Below are positions 15,613 to 63,938 of a DNA stretch of 64,000 bases, in pieces. The stretch is from Thiospirochaeta perfilievii (GTDB lineage Bacteria; Spirochaetota; Spirochaetia; DSM-2461). Each line of letters begins with the position of its first letter. Position 1 is the first letter of the stretch. The stretch spans positions 1,612,001-1,676,000 of the forward strand of contig NZ_CP035807.1 in assembly GCF_008329945.1 (NCBI RefSeq), in the 5' to 3' direction. Below the pieces are notes generated by a model that had not been told where the DNA came from, made no database searches, and saw only the letters and a program-made list of their open reading frames with translations. The position numbers and the translations under genes are program-made.

Positions 15613-17190
15613 ATGAGCATAGAAAAAAAGGTGAAGAAGTCATCAATTTTCACACTAATGATTTTTACTCTTGGATCTAGGGTCCTAGGTTTAGTAAGAG
15701 AGATGGTAAAAGCAAAATACCTAGGTTCTGCAATATTAAATGATGCTTTTAACGCAGCTTTTACTATACCAAACCTACTGCGAAGACTCTTTGCTGAGTC
15801 ATCTATGACTGTTGCATTTATTCCTACATTTAAAGGTTATCTTAAAAATGATAATAAAAAAGAGACTAAAGACTTTATTAATGCCACATTTACAGCCCTG
15901 ACATTTATTGTCACAATTACAGTTGTATTAGGTATCATATTCACTCCAATAATTGTAAAGGTATTTAAGGCTCAAAACACAGATATACCAGAACTAATTC
16001 TATTAACAAGGGTTATGTTCCCATACTTAGCATTTATCTCTTTAGCGGCACTTTGCCAAGGTGTTCTAAACAGTCTAAATATTTTTGGACCAGGTGGTTT
16101 TGTCCCAATACTTTTTAATATAATAACCATAATTATTACTATATTATTTACAAAATTAAAGGTTACAGCAAACCCAGCTAGAGCTATGGCTATTGGAATT
16201 ACCCTTGGAGGTGTTTCACAGATGGCTTTTCAACTACCCTATATTTTAAAAAATGGTTTTGGCTTTAAACTAACGAGCTTAAAAAAAGCTTTTAATAATA
16301 AAGGGACAAAAAAAGTAGGTAGACTTATAACCCCTACCCTTGCAAGTATGGGAGCCTATCAGCTAAGTACAGCTGTAGCGCAGATGTTAGCACTAAATAC
16401 AGGAGTTGGAATTAGCTCAGCCCTAGGGTACTCTCTAAGATTACAAGAGTTAGTCCTAGGTATTTTTGCTGTCTCCATTGGAACTATACTTATATCAACT
16501 CTATCCAGGGATGCTAAAGATAAAAATTGGGGAAATTTTACTTCAAGTTTACAACTTAGTGTAAATGTTATAGCATTTTTAACTATCCCAATTACTGTAT
16601 TTGCATATATTCACTCAACAGAGATTGTAACCCTAGTATATAAAAGTGGAGCCTTTGGAGAAAAGGGAGTATTAATGACATCCCAAGTGTTTAGAATACA
16701 TATATCAGGATTGTATTTTATTGCACTATCTAGAGTTATAGCTCCAGCATTTTTCTCCCTTGAAGACTCTAAAACCCCGGCTATTTTAGGCGTGATATCT
16801 GTAGTGTTTGGAATAATACTCATGTTCACCCTTGCTCCAATATTTAAGGGACAGGGTATAGCTGTTGCAACAATTTTATCATCTACTCTATTAACTATAC
16901 TCTACTTTATATTTCTTGGGAAAAAAGAGGATATAAATTTTAAATCAATTATGAAGAGTTCAATTCCTGCATTTATCAGGATAACAATATTCTCCCTATT
17001 GGCGGCGATTCCACTTTTAAGATACAAAGATAGAATCTTTAATATATTAAATACTGGAAACAGAATTATTGATTTTGGTATACCGCTAATAATAACAACC
17101 CTACTTTATTTTAGTGTTTACGTAATAATACTAATAATAACTAAAGAAAACGTTTTAAAAGAGTTAAAAAGACTAGCTAGAAGACCCTAA
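15613..17190 (+). CDS. murJ: Lipid II flippase MurJ
   Basis: A 525-residue polytopic membrane protein with about 14 hydrophobic segments, in the MATE-like MurJ/MviN family that moves the peptidoglycan precursor across the inner membrane. LGSRVLGLVREMVKAKYLG and AFNAAFTIPNLLRRLFAE near the N-terminus are diagnostic, including the conserved arginines of the central cavity. It is followed 18 bases on by a MarC-family gene, possibly in the same transcript. Confidence 0.96.
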   Translation: MSIEKKVKKSSIFTLMIFTLGSRVLGLVREMVKAKYLGSAILNDAFNAAFTIPNLLRRLFAESSMTVAFIPTFKGYLKNDNKKETKDFINATFTALTFIVTITVVLGIIFTPIIVKVFKAQNTDIPELILLTRVMFPYLAFISLAALCQGVLNSLNIFGPGGFVPILFNIITIIITILFTKLKVTANPARAMAIGITLGGVSQMAFQLPYILKNGFGFKLTSLKKAFNNKGTKKVGRLITPTLASMGAYQLSTAVAQMLALNTGVGISSALGYSLRLQELVLGIFAVSIGTILISTLSRDAKDKNWGNFTSSLQLSVNVIAFLTIPITVFAYIHSTEIVTLVYKSGAFGEKGVLMTSQVFRIHISGLYFIALSRVIAPAFFSLEDSKTPAILGVISVVFGIILMFTLAPIFKGQGIAVATILSSTLLTILYFIFLGKKEDINFKSIMKSSIPAFIRITIFSLLAAIPLLRYKDRIFNILNTGNRIIDFGIPLIITTLLYFSVYVIILIITKENVLKELKRLARRP

Positions 17191-17208
17191 GAATGTTATA
17201 CATCTGTT

Positions 17209-17796
17209 ATGAATTTTATTACTATATTGATTAAGATGTTTTTTCTCTACACACCGTTTTTTGCTCTGTCTATGTTTTTAGCAATGACAGACCATGCGGA
17301 AGAGAAGGAGAGGATCGCCCTAGCAGCTAAGACGACTCTCTCTGTTTTATTAATAAGTTTGGTTTTACTATTTTTTGGGAACCAAATCTTTAGAGTTTTT
17401 GGTATTACTGTAGACGCATTTAGGATCGGAGCTGGTTCGTTACTATTTTTATCTGCAGTCTCCCTTATTCAGGGTAAAAAAACCAAGGATGTAAATCCTG
17501 ATGATGATTTTACTGTTGTACCCCTAGCAATACCAACTATAGTAGGGCCTGCAACAATAGGTGCAATTATGGTTATGGGTTCAGAGTTTACAACTTTTGA
17601 TGCAAAATTAATGGGTTCTCTAGCAGTAGGGGCTGCAACAATCTCTGTAGGTTTAATTCTAGTTGTTTCATCTTATATTGAGAGAGCTATTAAAAAGCGG
17701 GGAATTATTATTATTAGTAAGTTAACAGGACTAATTTTAGCAGCACTGGCAGCCCAAATGATATTTACAGGAATAAAAAGCTTCTTATTTAGTTAA
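17209..17796 (+). CDS. MarC-family integral membrane protein
   Basis: A 195-residue protein with about six membrane helices. FAVS-type N-terminus, DAFRIGAGSLLFLSAVSLI and VPLAIPTIVGPATIGAIMV are the typical MarC/YchE blocks (the family's P-L-AxPxxxGPxxI motif). The function of the family is not established; the old link to multiple antibiotic resistance has been withdrawn. It follows murJ closely. Confidence 0.9.
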   Translation: MNFITILIKMFFLYTPFFALSMFLAMTDHAEEKERIALAAKTTLSVLLISLVLLFFGNQIFRVFGITVDAFRIGAGSLLFLSAVSLIQGKKTKDVNPDDDFTVVPLAIPTIVGPATIGAIMVMGSEFTTFDAKLMGSLAVGAATISVGLILVVSSYIERAIKKRGIIIISKLTGLILAALAAQMIFTGIKSFLFS

Positions 17797-17870: not shown

Positions 17871-19670
17871 ATGAATAAAAAGATAGTTAAAATTGATAGT
17901 GAAAACGTTATAGACCAACTTCAAAAGTTATCCCAGAATATAATTGGGTATAAAACAAGTTATGAGTCTGTAAATTTACAAATTGCAGATAGACTGCCAA
18001 AGATTGAAGATAAAATTAATAAGAACATCAACTCTGTAACAAAGTTGCAAGAGATGATTAGTGACTCATGTACTATAGGTCATGAATCTGATGCTTTTCT
18101 ACACTTTAATCAAAACTTAAATAAGACAATAAAAACCTTAGATGACAATAAGAGTATAGAGCTTGAAGCTTTTAAAGAACTTAAAGAGACAATTGAACAA
18201 CTAAACACTACTATTAAGAGAATTATCAATGTTGATGAGATATCAGAAAAACTAAAAGTTTTTGCTATAAATTCAATTGTTTATGCCCAACAAAATGGAG
18301 AGAGAGGAAGAGGTTATCAATTTATCTCTGAAGAATTTGTTAAGTTATCTGAAGATCTAGCTAAAAGTACAAAAACAATTAAAGGTGTAGGAAAAGATCT
18401 AGAAGAACAATCATCATCATTATTAAAAATTTTAGAAGATTATAATCAACATAGCATAGAGAACAACAAGTATATAACTGATAAGTATAAAACTATTCAA
18501 AATAATCTAGAAAAAGATATCAAGGAACTTTACACATCATTAGATAGTTGTACCTCCCATCTAAATAATCTAAAAAAGCCTATTAATAATATTATGTCTA
18601 TGCTTCAAGGGCAGGATATAATACACCAACAAATTGATCACATTATTAAAAATATAGAAGAGTCTATAGAGGTTTTAACTCAAAACAGTTTATTACTAAA
18701 TTCGCCAGATAAAGATTCGAAAGAGTATGTAGACATAATCGCACTACTAAACTTTCTATTTATTACTATCGAGAAACAACTAAAACGTACAAAAACAGAC
18801 CTTCTAAAAATGATTGGTAGGTTAGAAGACCCTATAAAAAATATTGAAGAAACAGTAAATATTGTTATTAAGGATCGGGGTCTTTTAGATAAGAACTACA
18901 AATCTTTAGTTTCTAAGATCTTCTCTAAACCCTTGGATACTATTCAGAAAGTCTCTAAAAGAGTAGAAACAAACCAGATTAAACAAAATAATATTGTTTT
19001 TAAGCTTAAAGAGATTGAGGATCTGATGCTTAAACAGACCCAGCTTTCAAAGAAGTTTGCCCCTCAAATGGAGATGATTAAAAACCTACTCTTTTTAGCT
19101 AATGTAGAACAGAAACGAAACCAATTAAGGATAGACCTAGATAGTAGCAATAGTGTATTTAATGAGTCTACATTTACTGAGTTAGAGGAAGTTATAGAGA
19201 AAACTGGTAGTTCTCAACAAGATCTTACAAAAAAAATTGTTACAGTAGTCAATATTTTTAACTCCCAAGAGGTTAATATTCAAAAGAATAGAGTGGGTCT
19301 AAACTCCTCTGGAGACGATCTTAAAAAAACAGAAAAAGTATTTTATCAAGACTATGAAGAGTATCATAGGCTTACTAATGAGTTAAGCAGTGAAATTATA
19401 AATTATAGAGAACTTTTTGCAAAATTACGGGAATTAGATAATAATTTGTATGAAAAGATAAATATCTTCTCAAGCTTAAAAAACATAATTATTAATATTA
19501 CAGAGGATAAGGATATATTAGGAGATCTTAATAATAATGTATTTAGAGGTACAGTTATACAGAGGGTTTTAGATAGTTTAACAGTGGATGAAGAGAGAGT
19601 TACAATTTTGGAAGAATTTCCAGAATTGGACATAGAAGAGACAACAGGTTCTTCTATAACTCTTTTTTAA
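17871..19670 (+). CDS. Soluble coiled-coil protein with a degenerate chemoreceptor-like signalling segment
   Basis: A 599-residue almost entirely helical protein without membrane segments. Around residues 125-165, KVFAINSIVYAQQNGERGRGYQFISEEFVKLSEDL resembles in spacing the hairpin tip of methyl-accepting chemotaxis proteins (NAAIEAARAGE...GFAVVADEIRKL), but most key residues differ. A later LQGQDIIHQQIDHI resembles helix-bundle segments in chemotaxis phosphatases. A cheY-like gene follows 24 bases downstream, so a role in chemotaxis or motility signalling is likely. The exact function is not established. Confidence 0.65.
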   Translation: MNKKIVKIDSENVIDQLQKLSQNIIGYKTSYESVNLQIADRLPKIEDKINKNINSVTKLQEMISDSCTIGHESDAFLHFNQNLNKTIKTLDDNKSIELEAFKELKETIEQLNTTIKRIINVDEISEKLKVFAINSIVYAQQNGERGRGYQFISEEFVKLSEDLAKSTKTIKGVGKDLEEQSSSLLKILEDYNQHSIENNKYITDKYKTIQNNLEKDIKELYTSLDSCTSHLNNLKKPINNIMSMLQGQDIIHQQIDHIIKNIEESIEVLTQNSLLLNSPDKDSKEYVDIIALLNFLFITIEKQLKRTKTDLLKMIGRLEDPIKNIEETVNIVIKDRGLLDKNYKSLVSKIFSKPLDTIQKVSKRVETNQIKQNNIVFKLKEIEDLMLKQTQLSKKFAPQMEMIKNLLFLANVEQKRNQLRIDLDSSNSVFNESTFTELEEVIEKTGSSQQDLTKKIVTVVNIFNSQEVNIQKNRVGLNSSGDDLKKTEKVFYQDYEEYHRLTNELSSEIINYRELFAKLRELDNNLYEKINIFSSLKNIIINITEDKDILGDLNNNVFRGTVIQRVLDSLTVDEERVTILEEFPELDIEETTGSSITLF

Positions 19671-19694
19671 AGATATACAATAATAGGAGAGATT

Positions 19695-20063
19695 ATGAAA
19701 ACAATATTTGCAGTAGATGATTCGGCAACAGCAAGGGCTTCTATACAGTACACTCTAAAAAGAGAGGGGTTCAACGTAGAGTTAGCAGTAGATGGTGTTG
19801 ATGCATTAAATAAAATTAGTAAATATAGTGGCGATATAGATGTTTTTCTTTTTGATGTGAATATGCCTAACATGGATGGAATAACTCTTATAAAGGAAGT
19901 GAGAAAGCTTAACAATCATAAGTTTACCCCCATACTATTTTTAACAACTGAATCCCAGGAGTCAAAAAAGATGGAGGGGAAAGCAGCAGGTGCAAGTGGT
20001 TGGATTGTTAAACCCTTTGAACCTGATGTGTTTGTGAATATTATTAAGAGATTTACTACTTAG
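19695..20063 (+). CDS. CheY-like single-domain response regulator
   Basis: A 122-residue receiver domain alone. The acidic pair is in AVDDSATAR, the phospho-acceptor aspartate in FLFDVNMPNMDG (about residue 55), the threonine in LFLTTESQ and the lysine in IVKPFEPD. The RBS GGAGAG precedes the ATG. It follows the coiled-coil signalling gene and converges on pgsA with an 8-base overlap. It probably signals to the flagellar motor or to another chemotaxis output. Confidence 0.93.
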   Translation: MKTIFAVDDSATARASIQYTLKREGFNVELAVDGVDALNKISKYSGDIDVFLFDVNMPNMDGITLIKEVRKLNNHKFTPILFLTTESQESKKMEGKAAGASGWIVKPFEPDVFVNIIKRFTT

Positions 20064-56606: not shown

Positions 56607-58175
56607 ATGGGCGGAATAAAAAAACAGGTAATCCCTGAAGAAATATCTACATATATTGAGTCTCTTGAAAACTCAAATAAATCTCTTGAAAATAGGGTTA
56701 AAATACTAGAAGAAGAGTTGCGTCTCGAAAGAGTAAAGAGATTTGGAAAATCTAGTGAAAAGGTTACACCTTTACAATCTGAATTATTTGATGAGTTTGA
56801 GCAAACCGCCTTGGATATAGAAGAAGAGGATGAACCTGAAGTTATATCTATTCCAGCATATAATAGAAAAAAGAAAGGTCGAAAACCTATAGATCCATCC
56901 CTACCTAGAAAACAAATCATTCACGATATATCAGAAGATGATAAACAGTGTGCTTGTGGATGTCAGATGGTTAAAATTGATGAAGTAGTAACAGAAAGGG
57001 TACAGATTATTCCTGAAAAGTCTTATGTAGAACAACATATAAGACCAAAATATGCCTGCAGGAATTGTGAAGGTTCAGGAGATGAAGATAAACCAACTTT
57101 TAGAGTTGCTCCTGCACCACCATCATTGATTTCAGGAAGTATAGTGACTGGTGGTCTTCTTGCTTACATCCATACAAATAAATTTTGTGATTACCTGCCA
57201 TTTTATCGGCAAGAGAAAAGATTTGAGAGGTATGGGATTCCGATAAGCAGACAGAATATGTCAAACTGGACTATAAAAGCTTATAGAAAATTAAAAGGTC
57301 TTAATGATATTATGAAAGATCACATAAAGACTGGTACATATCTTCAAATGGATGAAACAGTCCTCAAAGTTCATGGGGAAGTTGGTAAATTAGATTCTAG
57401 TAACTCTTACATATGGGTCACCTGTGGTGGGCCTAAAGACTCAAGTATAGCTCTCTATGAATATAATAGATCTCGAAGTTCAAAATATATTAAAGATTTT
57501 ACTGAAGGCTTTTCTGGGTTTTGTCAGTCAGATGGTTTCCCAGGTTACAATGCCGTTTTTAAAAATAGTGACAAAATAACACATGTAACATGTTTAGCAC
57601 ATTGTCGGAGAGAGCTTTACGATGCCTATAAAGCTTCTAAGCAACTAAATAAGTCTAATGTTGTAATTAATAAAATTCAAAAGATATATGTTGTAGAAAA
57701 ACAACTTAGAGATAAGAACCTCAAACCGGAAGAATTTGTAGCAGAAAGAAAGAAGTTAGCGACACCATTACTTGATAACCTAAAAGACTGGCTTGATAAA
57801 AAGGCTATAAATATTAGACCAGAAAGTAAATTGGGGAAAGCTGTAAAATATACATTAGGCCAATGGGATAAAATGATAAATTACCTTGATTGTGCAGAGC
57901 TTACTCCAGATAATAACGCTGCGGAGAGAGTGGTAAAACCACTTGTTATGGGTCGTAAAAATTTTTTATTTTCGGGTAGTCCTGAAGGTGCGGATGCATT
58001 ATGTTTTTTCTACTCTTTAATTGAAACGGCAAAATTAAATGATTTAAATCCATACGCATATTTAAAATGGTTATATGATAAGGCTCCATTATTACCAGAA
58101 GGCTCCTCATTAGAAGAATTAGCTCCATGGAAATGTGATCCAATAGAAGTTAATAAAATTATGTTACCTTCTTAG
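56607..58175 (+). CDS. tnpC: IS66 transposase TnpC
   Basis: A 522-residue DDE transposase of normal length. Leucine-zipper-like N-terminus (SLENSNKSLENRVKILEEEL), then RVKRFGKSSEKV, a zinc-finger region with CACGCQM and YACRNCEG, catalytic blocks LQMDETVLKVHGE and QSDGFPGYNA, and the C-terminal NNAAERVVKPLVMGRKNFLF with the final glutamate. Ends with the IS66 C-terminal LDKAPLLPE-like motif. Complete and probably functional. Confidence 0.95.
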   Translation: MGGIKKQVIPEEISTYIESLENSNKSLENRVKILEEELRLERVKRFGKSSEKVTPLQSELFDEFEQTALDIEEEDEPEVISIPAYNRKKKGRKPIDPSLPRKQIIHDISEDDKQCACGCQMVKIDEVVTERVQIIPEKSYVEQHIRPKYACRNCEGSGDEDKPTFRVAPAPPSLISGSIVTGGLLAYIHTNKFCDYLPFYRQEKRFERYGIPISRQNMSNWTIKAYRKLKGLNDIMKDHIKTGTYLQMDETVLKVHGEVGKLDSSNSYIWVTCGGPKDSSIALYEYNRSRSSKYIKDFTEGFSGFCQSDGFPGYNAVFKNSDKITHVTCLAHCRRELYDAYKASKQLNKSNVVINKIQKIYVVEKQLRDKNLKPEEFVAERKKLATPLLDNLKDWLDKKAINIRPESKLGKAVKYTLGQWDKMINYLDCAELTPDNNAAERVVKPLVMGRKNFLFSGSPEGADALCFFYSLIETAKLNDLNPYAYLKWLYDKAPLLPEGSSLEELAPWKCDPIEVNKIMLPS

Positions 58176-58616: not shown

Positions 58617-58709
58617 AAGCACTCCTAGTTTAGTTAAATATATTAATTCTTAAATATTATAATTTAAATATATCACAATTTGTAATCTAATTGTATAAAT
58701 TTTTATTCT

Positions 58710-58844
58710 ATATAACGTCCATTTAACCTGCCGATTCGTCACGGAGTGTTGGCGTGATTTTTGAATGGAGGGACGATTAGTCCTGGAATGGCTGAAAGCA
58801 AAAATCATGACAAAGAATCGGACTGGTTCAAATGTTTGTTATGT
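58710..58844 (-). other. attC2 (135-bp type)
   Basis: Boxes ATATAAC (58710-58716) and GTTATGT (58838-58844). Arms CATTTAACC...GATTC and GAATC...GGTTCAAATG pair with one extra G in the right arm; GTGTTGGCG lies in the left arm. ATATAAC is the exact complement of GTTATAT at 55019-55025 across cassette 2. Read on the minus strand; belongs to cassette 3. Confidence 0.93.
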
Positions 58845-59113
58845 AGCGCCCCCAGTTTTGAAATAAGGGGTCTATAGACCCTATTTCAGAAGATTTCTGA
58901 CGGAGTAAAACTTTGTTGAAGCCTTTAGGCTGAACCCTGGCTGACCGGATCATATCATGTAATTATAAAAATAACCAAAGGTAAAAGTTTAGACTTACAG
59001 TCCCCTATTTTTCCTTTTTTTATTTTTTAATATGTTTTAAAATCTCAATTTTTTACTAGTTAGAATCTGATTATACCCCAACTTAACATTGAGTCGCAAA
59101 AGTGCCTACATAA
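58716..59113 (-). mobile_element. Geneless cassette 3, copy 1 of the 398-bp promoter cassette
   Basis: A 398-bp cassette without an ORF over 41 codons. On the minus strand a promoter TTGCGA (59099-59094), 18-base spacer, TATAAT (59075-59070) reads toward attC2. The expected transcript of about 200 bases contains AGCC-TAA-AGGCT and a long stem TGAAATA...TATTTCA (58859-58888). It reads identical to cassette 9. It may encode a small RNA or supply a promoter to the cassettes further left. Confidence 0.75.
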
Positions 59114-59242
59114 CGTCCATTTAACCTGCAGATTCGTCACGGAGTGTTGGCGTGATTTTTGAATGGAGGGACGATTAGTCCTGGAATGGCTGAAAGCAAA
59201 AATCATGACAAAGAATCGGACTGGTTCAAATGTTTGTTATGT
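59108..59242 (-). other. attC3 (135-bp type)
   Basis: Boxes ACATAAC (59108-59114) and GTTATGT (59236-59242). Almost identical to attC2; one base differs in the left arm (CTGCAGATTC instead of CTGCCGATTC). Extra G in the right arm, minus orientation. Confidence 0.93.
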
Positions 59243-59505
59243 AGCGCCCCCAGTTTTGAAATAAGGGGTCTATAAACCCTATTTCAGAAGATTTCTGACG
59301 AAGTAAAACTTTGTTGAAGCCGTTAGGCTGAACCCTGCCTGACCGGATCATATCATGTAATTATTAAAATAACCAAAGGTAAAAGTTTTGACTTACAGTC
59401 CCCTATTTTTCCTTTTTTTTAATATGTTTTAAAATCTCAATTTTTTACCAGTTAGAATCTGATTATAGCCCAATTTAACATTGAGTCGCAAAAGTGCCTA
59501 CATAA
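59114..59505 (-). mobile_element. Geneless cassette 4, copy 2 of the promoter cassette
   Basis: A 392-bp variant. The promoter is kept: TTGCGA (59491-59486), 18 bases, TATAAT (59467-59462). It differs from copy 1 by scattered substitutions and a shorter T/A tract. The hairpin loop AGCC-TAA-CGGCT differs from copy 1, while the stem is kept. Confidence 0.72.
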
Positions 59506-59634
59506 CGTCCATTTAACCTGCCGATTCGTCACGGAGTGTTGGCGTGATTTTTGAATGGAGGGACGATTAGTCCTGGAATGGCTGAAAGCAAAAATCATGA
59601 CAAAGAATCGGACTGGTTCAAATGTTTGTTATGT
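59500..59634 (-). other. attC4 (135-bp type)
   Basis: Boxes ACATAAC (59500-59506) and GTTATGT (59628-59634), same arms as attC2, minus orientation. Belongs to cassette 5. Confidence 0.93.
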
Positions 59635-59903
59635 AGCGCCCCCAGTTCTGAAATAAGGGGTCTATAAACCCTATTTCAGAAGAATTCTGACGAAGTAAAA
59701 CTTTGTTGAAGCCGTTAGGCTGAACCCTGGCTGACCGGATCATATCATGTAATTATTAAAATAACCAAAGGTAAAAGTTTTGACTTACAGTCCCCTATTT
59801 TTCCTTTTTTTATTTTTTTAATATGTTTTAAAATCTCAATTTTTTACCAGTTAGAATCTGATTATACCCAATTTAACATCGAGTCGCAAAAGTGCCTACA
59901 TAA
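59506..59903 (-). mobile_element. Geneless cassette 5, copy 3 of the promoter cassette
   Basis: A 398-bp variant closest to copy 2. Promoter TTGCGA (59889-59884), 17 bases, TATAAT (59866-59861). The one-base deletion in the spacer still leaves an optimal distance. It is the first of three tandem copies in reading direction. Confidence 0.72.
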
Positions 59904-60008
59904 CGTCGACTTGAGATGAAAGTTTGTCCCGCAGGGTTGGCGCTGTTCTTGCATTTTATTTGCGAGAACAGTGACAAAAAACTTTTCTTCTCCTAGTCTT
60001 TGTTAAAT
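59898..60008 (-). other. attC5 (111-bp type)
   Basis: Boxes ACATAAC (59898-59904) and GTTAAAT (60002-60008). Arms GACTTGAG... and ...CTCCTAGTC pair, with extra bases in the right arm; GGTTGGCGC in the left arm and a central AGAACAG-type stem. Belongs to the lipoprotein cassette. Confidence 0.92.
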
Positions 60009-60078: not shown

Positions 60079-60372
60079 TTAATTCTTTATCTTCAATTCT
60101 GTTTGACACTATTAATAACTGATAAAAATTATTGGTTCCATAACCGTAGGTTAATTATTTATCTTTTAATCTTGTTGCCACTATTAATAACGGATAAAAA
60201 TTATAAGTTCCGCAACCGTAGGTTAATTCTTTATCTTCAATTCTGTTTGACACTATTAATAACTGATAAAAATTATTAGTTCTGTAACCGTAGGTTAATT
60301 CATTATCTTCAATTCTGTTTGCCACTTTTGATAACTTATAAAAATTATTAGTTTCGTAACCGTAGGTTAATT
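60079..60372. repeat. Four tandem 72-bp repeats in cassette 6
   Basis: The string CCGTAGGTTAA recurs at a spacing of exactly 72 bases (G at 60146, 60218, 60290 and 60362). Each unit also holds TTATCTT, CTGTTTGACAC and AACTGATAA-AAA-TTATTAGTT, a 9-bp stem with one mismatch. Degenerate parts of the unit (ATACAATTTCTAATAA, CGAAGGTTA) recur at about 60390-60510 and again on the other side of the lipoprotein gene (61160-61255). They lie downstream of the gene in its reading direction. No ORF uses them. Confidence 0.85.
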
Positions 60373-60550
60373 TAATAATTCTATTGGTTAATACAATTTC
60401 TAATAAACATAGTAACTTTATGTATTTATACCGTAAGTTACTTTGTCAATTATCCTGTTTGAAACAATTTCTGATTAACATAAAAACTCCTTGGTTTGTC
60501 GAAGGTTAGTATATCTTATAAATCTGGAGTCATTCTCTTTAGTAATTCTT

Positions 60551-61075
60551 TTATGGATTGTAATATGTTATTGAAGCTTTCCCTTCAAAAGCTACTGAAT
60601 AATTCTTTATCTGAACAAAAACATTATTTTCATTTTGTTCTAATTTGTATCCAGTTGCATTTATTTCAATATCATATGAATTTGTTGTTGTATTCGCATT
60701 GCTTATAGTTAAGGTTCCGGTACTAGCACTATAGCTATTATCGCCTACATTCCATCCACTAAAAGAAGCTTCAGATTCTGTAGACATACTATAGGAAGAA
60801 ACAATATTATATGTTCCATTCTTTGGAATCATATCCGATGATGAATAATAGAATCCAATATTTGTGTAATTCGTAACTTGATCTATTTTTTGACAATCAA
60901 TTACAAATGTCGATTGGGTATTCCCATTATTATACGAGACTTCATGTCCCTTAGTGCTTGTAGATATATTTACAGTTTCATCAACAGTAAGGGAAGTCGG
61001 ATTTGTAGAATTGTCACAACCAAAAAATAGTAAGGGAAATAAGATAAATAGAATTTTTTTCAAAATATACTCCAT
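60551..61075 (-). CDS. Cassette-borne small lipoprotein
   Basis: A 174-residue protein. Signal peptide with KK and a hydrophobic core ends LLFFGC, so Cys20 is probably lipidated. The mature part is rich in Ser, Thr, Asn and Tyr with beta-strand alternation, ending NYSVAFEGKASITYY, like an Ig- or lipocalin-like surface domain; no family is recognised. It is the only gene of cassette 6 and reads in cassette orientation. Confidence 0.7.
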   Translation of the reverse strand: MEYILKKILFILFPLLFFGCDNSTNPTSLTVDETVNISTSTKGHEVSYNNGNTQSTFVIDCQKIDQVTNYTNIGFYYSSSDMIPKNGTYNIVSSYSMSTESEASFSGWNVGDNSYSASTGTLTISNANTTTNSYDIEINATGYKLEQNENNVFVQIKNYSVAFEGKASITYYNP

Positions 61076-61315
61076 AAATAAATTTTTTTAATAAGTTAAT
61101 ATATTCTTAAAAAATATAAATGTAAATTAAAATAATATTATAATTCAATTGTTATAGTTGATACAATTTCTAATAACAATCAAAGTCTTACCCTAAAACT
61201 ATCGTTCAATTCTCCTGATTTTCACTATTTTGTTTGTTTTCCGAAGGTTAATATGTTATTTATTTCGTTTAACACAAACTCATAATCATTAAAATTAATA
61301 CTCACCTAAAAGTGC
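61076..61315. other. Upstream part of cassette 6 without a gene
   Basis: AT-rich sequence between the lipoprotein start and attC6. It contains degenerate pieces of the repeats that also lie downstream of the gene (ATACAATTTCTAATAA near 61158, CGAAGGTTAATAT near 61243). No convincing promoter was found. Confidence 0.5.
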
Positions 61316-61426
61316 ATTTAACGTCCGATTGAGTGGAAAGTTTGTTCCGTAGGATTGGCGTGAAATCTGCATTTTTCTTGCAGATTTCATGACAAAAAGC
61401 TTTTCCATTCCAATCGTTTGTTATAC
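61316..61426 (-). other. attC6 (111-bp type)
   Basis: Boxes ATTTAAC (61316-61322), exact complement of the GTTAAAT that ends attC5, and GTTATAC (61420-61426). Arms CGATTGAGTGGAAAG and CTTTTCCATTCCAATCG pair with an extra base on the right. Minus orientation; belongs to the membrane-protein cassette. Confidence 0.94.
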
Positions 61427-62942: not shown

Positions 62943-63534
62943 GAAAAATGCAGTGATTTAAGAAAAAAGAGTCTATATATTATCATTTTTCATTTTAGTT
63001 CATATTTACTGAGCAATCATCCCGATTCACCCATAATATAATTAGGCAGTTTCTCAGTCATTTTAGTTTTTGTACTAACAATGATAAAGGATATAAAAGT
63101 ATTTATCCTCCCGCATTAAATAAATTAAGTGATCCATCGTTTTAATCCAGAAAAAGTGTGTTCAGTAATTAAGAATTAAATTCATTTAGATAAACTTTGC
63201 TTTAATTAATAGTAATCTTATTAAGAGTAAAATTATATTACTAAGCCCATTTAGTGAAACTTAGTTCTTAATAAATAGTGATCTTGTTAAGAATAAAATT
63301 ATAATACTAAACCCATTACGAAAGAAATTTATTTTCATCTATAATTGTACTATTAGAAATTAATTAAAAAGATATTTGATAAAAGTAGGGGGCTTATTTT
63401 GATAATTATCGTATAAAATAAATTATCTATATCGGCATTATTTGTAAATATTATTTAACTAATTTGAGTATTTTATATCATTATTTTATATTTTAAGATT
63501 AATATCAATATTTTATTAACCGCCTTTTGGCGGC
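62943..63534. other. Geneless cassette 8 with a 66-bp duplicated segment
   Basis: Nearly 600 bases without an ORF of 60 codons, framed by attC7 and attC8. A segment of about 66 bases occurs twice in tandem around 63190-63320 (AGTAATCTT...CTAAGCCCAT and AGTGATCTT...CTAAACCCAT). Just before attC8 lies ACCGCC-TTTT-GGCGG, a small GC hairpin at about 63520-63534. I see no function. Confidence 0.5.
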
Positions 63535-63669
63535 AGATAACGTCCATTTAACCTGCCGATTCGTCACGGAGTGTTGGCGTGATTTTTGAATGGAGGGACG
63601 ATTAGTCCTGGAATGGCTGAAAGCAAAAATCATGACAAAGAATCGGACTGGTTCAAATGTTTGTTATGT
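63535..63669 (-). other. attC8 (135-bp type)
   Basis: Boxes AGATAAC (63535-63541), exact complement of GTTATCT in attC7, and GTTATGT (63663-63669). Arms identical to attC2. Belongs to geneless cassette 9. Confidence 0.94.
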
Positions 63670-63938
63670 AGCGCCCCCAGTTTTGAAATAAGGGGTCTAT
63701 AGACCCTATTTCAGAAGATTTCTGACGGAGTAAAACTTTGTTGAAGCCTTTAGGCTGAACCCTGGCTGACCGGATCATATCATGTAATTATAAAAATAAC
63801 CAAAGGTAAAAGTTTAGACTTACAGTCCCCTATTTTTCCTTTTTTTATTTTTTAATATGTTTTAAAATCTCAATTTTTTACTAGTTAGAATCTGATTATA
63901 CCCCAACTTAACATTGAGTCGCAAAAGTGCCTACATAA
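63541..63938 (-). mobile_element. Geneless cassette 9, copy 4 of the promoter cassette
   Basis: A 398-bp cassette that reads identical to cassette 3 although 4.8 kb away, with promoter TTGCGA (63924-63919), 18 bases, TATAAT (63900-63895). Identity with cassette 3 and not with the tandem neighbours 4 and 5 points to recent separate insertion or to cassette exchange. Confidence 0.75.

Follow-up and report, generated by a model that had tools for sequence, protein, structure and literature searches.

A 72-bp tandem repeat in a lipoprotein cassette

What is a block of tandem repeats doing inside an integron cassette? The question is raised by Thiospirochaeta perfilievii, in which four copies of a 72-bp unit lie between a gene for a lipoprotein-like protein and its attC site. 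We analysed them in a stretch of 64,000 nucleotides (the window) and in the genome to which it belongs (G000; 3.7 Mb, two contigs). An earlier note on this DNA had described four copies at a constant 72-base period, and this description was borne out by TRF, which called a period of 72 with 4.1 copies, 86% matches, no indels and a score of 455 at positions 60079-60372. The units are identical with one another at 58-69 of their 72 positions. The range given for the repeats, 60079-60520, holds four good copies as far as 60372, and the rest consists of two degenerate ones. The cassette holding the array is 1313 bp long and is bounded by two attC sites (59901-60005 and 61319-61423). As in integron cassettes, the attC-like sites of the window's array share one orientation, and the site at 61319-61423 folds far below its shuffles (z −5.3). 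The integron integrase of this genome is located at C1:3612702-3613646 (382 bits against a cut-off of 265), and no integrase over the cut-off lies beside the window's array, which is therefore CALIN-like. The features of the cassette are listed below.

59901..60005 (C1:1671901-1672005), minus strand: attC closing the lipoprotein cassette on its 3' side, 105 nt, with consensus attC ends
60079..60372, minus strand: four 72-bp units (4.1 copies), by TRF and pairwise identity
60143..60152 (C1:1672143-1672152), plus strand: core ACCGTAGGTT, copy 1, by exact pattern search
60215..60224, plus strand: core ACCGTAGGTT, copy 2, by exact pattern search
60287..60296, plus strand: core ACCGTAGGTT, copy 3, by exact pattern search
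60359..60368, plus strand: core ACCGTAGGTT, copy 4, by exact pattern search
60373..60512, minus strand: two degenerate units in the gap between array and gene, of the subtype with ACAATTTCTRATWAACAT (repeat families D2, D7 and D15)
60551..61075, minus strand: cassette gene for a 174-aa lipoprotein-like protein, with a hydrophobic start ending in LLFFGC
about 61133..61279, minus strand: degenerate units 5' of the lipoprotein-like gene (DNA search, sequence model, families D15-D16)
61319..61423, minus strand: attC bordering the lipoprotein cassette on its 5' side, with a mini-hairpin TCC-GTA-GGA on the plus strand

On the plus strand, the attC at 59901..60005 has the ends TAACGTCGAC...CTTTGTTA, and this (bottom) strand carries a mini-hairpin CCC-GCA-GGG. 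An extra mini-hairpin just before TTGG was observed on the attC bottom strand in G000 and in a second genome, G001, with stems varying among CCC/GGG, TCC/GGA and CAC/GTG.

The interval 60079..60372 was also matched by a sequence model, itself built partly from these units. Degenerate relatives of the repeat, which had been claimed for either side of the gene, were indeed found to about 60512 on one side and at about 61133-61279 on the other. Used as a query in a DNA search, the stretch 60373..60512 matched C1:1082403-1082475 over query positions 2-72 (77% identity, E 1.8e-8). The units 5' of the gene were recovered at C1:1673133-1673176 by DNA search (80%, E 0.0014) and at C1:1673210-1673279 by the model (E 1e-5), the latter being one of the model's own 19 units, and they include a core variant TCCGAAGGTT at 61240-61249. 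A 20-base stretch (family D16) is 95% identical between the 5' and the 3' side of the gene. Since degenerate units lie on both flanks, the gene sits within the repeat and not next to it. For the 174-aa protein itself, a family search gave no match over the cut-off, and a search of 60 relatives gave a single weak match (E 0.002).

Each copy had also been credited with a 9-bp near-perfect stem. In every copy, 7-8 of the nine pairs of this stem (AACTGATAA/TTATTAGTT) are Watson-Crick pairs, but when the plus strand is read, only two of the four copies pair throughout, G-U included, the other two having one or two mismatches. No compensatory changes were found among the four copies, and the same alignment stretch is missing or replaced in the 56-, 60- and 62-bp units of the sister arrays described below. 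On these grounds the 9-bp stem was rejected as the kept feature. The earlier note had proposed to set its reading against random slippage with no conservation of the stem; by that test the stem falls, but the repeat, taken whole, survives.

We also considered whether the array is the remnant of a repeat protein, as 72 bp corresponds to 24 codons and one minus-strand frame reads as repeats of ELTYGYxTNNFYQLLIVSNRIEDK with a single stop across the four units. Such an origin is hardly credible: the variable columns are spread evenly over the three phases (7, 5 and 6), the differences are mostly non-synonymous in whichever frame, the sister periods of 56 and 62 bp are no multiples of three, and a Pfam search gave no match over the cut-off. 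A coding repeat was thus rejected on phase, on synonymous and non-synonymous counts, on stops and on the periods of the sister arrays. Elsewhere in the window, at 63183-63317, a separate ORF-less cassette contains another tandem repeat (66 bp × 2.1), which lacks the CCGTAGG core and holds the palindrome CTAAACCCATTTAG or near variants of it.

Related arrays in the same genome share a 10-nt core

A search for the repeat unit elsewhere had been suggested as a check. TRF of cassette regions revealed three further arrays in the same genome, with other unit lengths and a shared core. All four arrays are called by TRF independently of the core. The related loci are as follows.

C1:1676694-1677025: array of 56 bp × 5.9, by TRF, 5' of a BrnT/BrnA pair
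C1:3595188-3595443: array of 62 bp × 4.2, by TRF, 5' of a YoeB/Phd pair
C1:3605760-3606054: array of 60 bp × 4.9, by TRF, inside a cassette of 848 bp that has no plausible ORF
C1:1082403-1082475: single degenerate unit, by DNA search, 5' of a toxin-antitoxin pair (Gp49-like toxin, HTH antitoxin)

The units, 56-72 bp long and rich in A and T, are alike within an array, diverged between arrays save for the core, and fixed in orientation relative to the cassette. The full units of the 56-, 60- and 62-bp arrays all contain ACCGTAGGTT. Across the genome, exact ACCGTAGGTT occurs 19 times on the forward strand and never on the reverse (0+2 for the reversed-pattern control), and 18 of the 19 lie within the four cassette arrays. 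The 19th is solitary, in apparently coding DNA, with no second core or attC-like motif near it. Strand-locking of this kind proves nothing alone, as it follows from the orientation of the cassettes. When a sequence model built from 18 array units and one degenerate unit was run against the window's genome, it matched 21 places, every one on the forward strand and in a cassette; the search scored 150 of 5768 first-look candidates, so that weak copies may escape, as did that at C1:1082403, which went unreported. In the main array of this genome, the palindrome GACTTACAGTC, within repeated 399-bp cassettes, is commoner than ACCGTAGGTT.

The constraint on the core was assessed by aligning the consensus units of five arrays from two species, four from the window's genome and one from G001. 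The ACCGTAGGTT run is invariant, against one of 41 other full columns, and an invariant run of this kind was reached by none of 100,000 column shuffles; the flanks of the core have a mean identity of 42%, in units that were gathered by the core and an alignment that was anchored on it.

The tie between the repeats and the lipoprotein is incidental, because the cassettes that hold related arrays encode YoeB/Phd, BrnT/BrnA or RelE/Phd pairs, or lack a plausible gene altogether. Among the cassettes of G000 and G001 with these repeats, the window's is the only one whose good array follows the gene on its 3' side. In most of the array-bearing cassettes seen in the window's genome, the repeats fill ORF-less cassettes or leaders.

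Search beyond the genome

In G001, which belongs to the same genus as G000, two cores at a spacing of 66 bp have an attC on one side and a Phd/RelE pair on the other. These two copies were seen by pattern search and missed by the sequence model. A stretch equal to that in G001 is present in a Spirochaetales contig, JAFGYD010000267.1. The model search of 25 other genomes gave one match, at a single place in G012 (E 4e-4), which was taken as chance. The 442-bp stretch of the window was compared with 61 genomes and matched eight of them at E <= 0.01, the best match outside the window's genome (E 0.002) likewise being taken as chance. A scan for two cores 40-68 bases apart returned 63 stretches from genome contigs and eight from viral contigs; the matched parts of these 71, judged by eye, were REP-like, coding repeats or tRNA-like, and the sole AT-rich likeness was the Spirochaetales contig. 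A 17-base pattern with one mismatch matched nine genomes among 98 relatives. Nine loci outside the window's genome were screened for cores, TTGGCG and tandem repeats, and parts of four of them were also read; cassette repeats were present only at G001:C110. The exact 10-mer ACCGTAGGTT stands at chance level in G002 (3, control 2) and G026 (5, control 4), and the one of the three G002 copies that was examined has no second core nearby.

Among 20 stretches from 13 other genomes, 19 of them next to integrases, tandem repeats with a period of at least 30 were found only in G069 and G022, and the absence of repeats from the others is weak evidence, since the attC finder recovered few attC there. 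Those of G069 lie in cassettes, and G022 has one 33-bp repeat. Further stretches from G049 did contain such tandem repeats. We found no account of such repeats in open-licence papers on integrons, cassettes and attC sites.

A sister family in Treponema-like integrons

The cassettes of G069 contain tandem repeats of 99-102 bp with the core GTCCTTCGGAC on the sense strand, which is GTCCGAAGGAC on the bottom strand. We take the genus of G069 and G049 to be Treponema-like, partly from its attC. The unit lengths of the repeats in Treponema-like cassettes are 84-102 bp. In G069, a 16-base pattern around GTCCTTCGGAC occurs 22 times forward and never in reverse; 20 of these sites are at 1458-1480 kb beside the integrase (within 60 kb), and two are at 328 kb, where attC-like motifs also occur. 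G049 has eight forward sites and none in reverse, all eight within 60 kb of the integrase. The pattern is present in five of the eight genomes of that genus, each time on one strand only, the distance to the integrase having been determined for G069 and G049 among the five. Cassettes with the core number 9 of 18 in G069 and 4 of 14 in G049, as cut by the attC finder, with two gaps of >6 kb in G049 omitted and some long 'cassettes' perhaps concealing attC. The first core lies 158-200 nt past the attC in 8 of these 13 cassettes.

In 32 distinct units of the Treponema type, TATAAT is found 12 nt after the core with a mean identity of 0.98, against 0.85 over all columns, and several other stretches match TATAAT in conservation. 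The corresponding value of 0.99 for the core is uninformative, because the units were picked with both core arms fixed. One unit lies immediately 5' of a 216-aa ORF. When all 4-3-4 palindromes containing four or more G or C were scanned, ACCGTAGGTT and GTCCTTCGGAC came out at the top, or nearly so, in their own regions. Other palindromes repeated at least four times in relatives were observed in G071, G030 and G069.

What the repeats may do

The explanation that we favour, tentatively and with the function inferred, is a non-coding cis-element carried by the cassettes, which slippage would have amplified and whose core is under constraint; it would most likely act in cassette transcription. 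Copy number would rise and fall through slippage or unequal recombination, and selection would preserve the core since it would act in cis. The element could serve as an operator or a promoter element in the sense direction, through which its own cassette, or the next one, would gain expression independent of the integron promoter. In Treponema-like units the palindrome stands 12 nt upstream of TATAAT, where a −35 element would be expected. It is this placement, together with sense promoters measured in published cassettes from Vibrio and probably from Treponema, that suggests a regulatory role. Reporter activity in E. coli is described for some cassettes of probable Treponema origin, ORF-less ones and ones with toxin-antitoxin genes, two of the five cassettes first tested being inactive (PMC6557892). 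Most of 29 gene-less Vibrio cassettes are reported to act as sense promoters, and a section heading of that paper states that the promoters of gene-less cassettes are not identifiable in silico (PMC11014356).

For the window's own units the regulatory reading is weak, because promoter scans stayed at shuffle level and, by eye, no −10 is conserved at that spacing. Sigma-70-like sites in the four array regions showed no excess over shuffles (8 v 6.1, 6 v 7.4, 5 v 7.9 and 12 v 10.7), and inspection of the units of the window's genome by eye revealed no conserved −10 at the spacing of the Treponema units. The window's good array, lying 3' of its gene and not 5', also counts against this reading. 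The core of a host regulator would be expected at other genes too, and the finding of one in 19 elsewhere counts against that use.

Several other explanations have to be weighed against a cis-element in transcription. It is possible, though we doubt it, that the repeats are functionless minisatellites, cassette leader DNA that changes length by replication slippage, with the small hairpin at most aiding slippage. By definition they are minisatellites, that is, tandem units of variable copy number, the variation being one to four units among Treponema-like cassettes. Homogeneous units within an array and different units among arrays, degenerate units at array edges, and the filling of ORF-less cassettes or leaders all agree with an absence of function. 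Slippage, which the earlier note had offered along with an RNA element and a protein-binding site, is supported as the amplifying process: every array repeats a homogeneous unit of its own, and the sister repeat varies from one to four copies. It is insufficient alone, because the 10-nt core is identical in five arrays of two species whose remaining sequence is about 42% identical, albeit in units gathered by the core. In the second genus, too, 42 of the 47 one-mismatch matches to the 16-base pattern are exact.

A structural role in DNA or RNA would account for the palindrome in other ways. The core may be an element of integron single-stranded DNA: the bottom strand, which folds and recombines at attC, would form a CC-GNA-GG mini-hairpin there that helps to expose or mark it; this seems quite unlikely to us. 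The bottom strand reads CC-GTA-GG, with GTA in 20, GAA in 2 and ATA in 1 of the G000 and G001 cassette loops when the loop is left free, and the distinct units of the Treponema family read CC-GAA-GG in 30 of 32 and CC-GCA-GG in 2 of 32. Of the 14 distinct attC segment types of G000 and G001, 12 carry a GNA-triloop mini-hairpin on the bottom strand, compared with 0.85 of 14 on average and a maximum of 5 in 2000 sets of mononucleotide shuffles, in which shared descent is uncontrolled; one of the two non-GNA segments has GAC, and the other was scored GAG, though an equal-length GC-GAA-GC is present by eye. In the one attC that was folded, the hairpin appears in the bottom-strand prediction and is absent from the top-strand fold, and the cores are nearly restricted to integron regions in G000, G069 and G049. 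Against this, a GNA on one strand reads as UNC on its complement, which leaves strand and nucleic acid ambiguous. The stem has 3-4 pairs, of which the outermost is lost in the 60-bp array, and the inner pairs are invariant and thus show no covariation. Short core stretches fold weakly as DNA (z about −1; 31-36 of 200 shuffles equal), and copy 1 of the window folds into a different small stem. The link with attC was noticed post hoc, and the Treponema-like attC of L246, by eye, is without such a hairpin. In a broader form of this idea, which we consider unlikely, spirochaete integron cassettes would carry a class of tandem mini-palindromes locked to one strand, reading CC-GNA-GG on the bottom strand of attC; the sequences differ between the two genera, and those of one genus match the GNA hairpin in its attC. 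The class might then be a DNA-structure element in recombination or expression and not filler. Decidedly doubtful as well is an RNA element, in which the sense strand would form small hairpins within cassette transcripts, in their 5' leader or 3' region, or a repetitive small RNA. Its orientation would be constant relative to the cassette genes, as observed, and the sites are found 5' or 3' of genes and also in ORF-less cassettes. The region of the ORF-less 60-bp cassette contains four terminator-like sites against 0.5 in shuffles, one of which is an 11-bp hairpin adjoining the 60-bp array, the other three being, by position, in or at attC or in the neighbouring 399-bp cassette. In the remaining three regions, however, such sites are about as frequent as in shuffles (1 v 0.6, 0 v 0.6 and 0 v 0.2), no match in the 40 kb of L021 and L057 reached an Rfam gathering score, and the consensus structure comprises the 3-bp core only (−0.16 kcal/mol), with no pairs changed on both sides.

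The 11-bp hairpin adjoining the 60-bp array, at L057:16080-16105, was scored by the terminator scan on the minus strand.

Comparison with known systems

REP/RAYT-type repeats consist of a GTAG foot and a hairpin, and the present repeats resemble them as a short palindrome with GTAG in many copies in one genome; many of the 71 two-core stretches in other organisms also resemble GTAG plus a hairpin by eye. In contrast to REP sequences, the repeats are confined to cassettes, and in the aligned units no conserved stem follows the GTAG. The window's genome gave no match to a RAYT (Y1_Tnp) transposase at E <= 0.001 (control matches in 5 of 14). REP/RAYT was ruled out on the lack of a Y1 transposase and of a stem beyond GTAG. 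CRISPR arrays are similar in having direct repeats of similar period (56-72 bp); here the whole unit repeats, spacers included, none of which is unique, and only about 10 nt are kept between arrays, so this candidate was rejected.

The RNA of type III toxin-antitoxin systems is ToxI-like, and a likeness lies in three cassettes, two of G000 and one of G001, where a repeat stretch adjoins toxin-antitoxin genes. The units here are longer, however, and what adjoins them is a type II pair (with a protein antitoxin), a lipoprotein or no gene. Scans of two regions scored no terminator in the space separating the repeats from the genes. A type III antitoxin was rejected, as no ToxN/CptN/TenpN-like toxin follows the repeats, the neighbours being YoeB/Phd, BrnT/BrnA, Gp49 with HTH, RelE/Phd, the lipoprotein-like protein or no plausible ORF.

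Further parallels are non-coding cassettes. The promoter-active ORF-less or gene-less cassettes of PMC6557892 and PMC11014356 are, like these repeats, non-coding integron cassette DNA, and those of PMC6557892 share with them a suggested spirochaete origin and carriers that include toxin-antitoxin as well as ORF-less cassettes; unlike here, the available text of the two papers describes no tandem array or palindromic core. Vibrio non-coding cassettes, proposed to be regulatory or selfish, are likewise paralogous ORF-less cassettes kept in a lineage, but a tandem structure is not described in the available text (PMC1382264). That source gives ORF-less cassettes as 6% to 49% of Vibrio arrays (PMC1382264). 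The repeats touch on two open questions, the role of ORF-less cassettes and the expression of cassettes distant from the integron promoter, and an invariant core in a cassette-specific repeat offers a small, mutable target for both. If the core acts in cis, cassettes would bring their own regulatory module, evolving through copy number.

Integrons in the class and other features of the arrays

An integron integrase over the curated cut-off is present in 33 of 98 genomes of the class, G000 included. Treponema has been stated to be the sole spirochaete clade with integrons (PMC3607928), and integrons in the class are wider than that statement.

Both arrays of the window's genome contain, many times over and almost unchanged, an ORF-less cassette of about 392-399 bp, at the following places.

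Window 58708-59907 and 63538-63935: copies of the 392-399-bp ORF-less cassette
L057:12961-15368, 16313-17519 and 19041-19847: copies of the same cassette

Transposase genes were also observed. That at 56607-58175 of the window, beside the array, is presumably IS66-like, and a gene whose translation is identical by eye lies at L057:6907-8475 in the main integron array. At L033:1631-3000, a 368-aa transposase-like ORF, which we take to be IS110-like, apparently lies within an attC beside a toxin-antitoxin cassette. An ATPase cassette gene with the same 124-nt attC is found in both arrays (L021:9440-10747 and L057:17645-18964; 439 aa in L057, the L021 version having been read from the DNA by eye), which suggests that cassettes have been exchanged between the two arrays.
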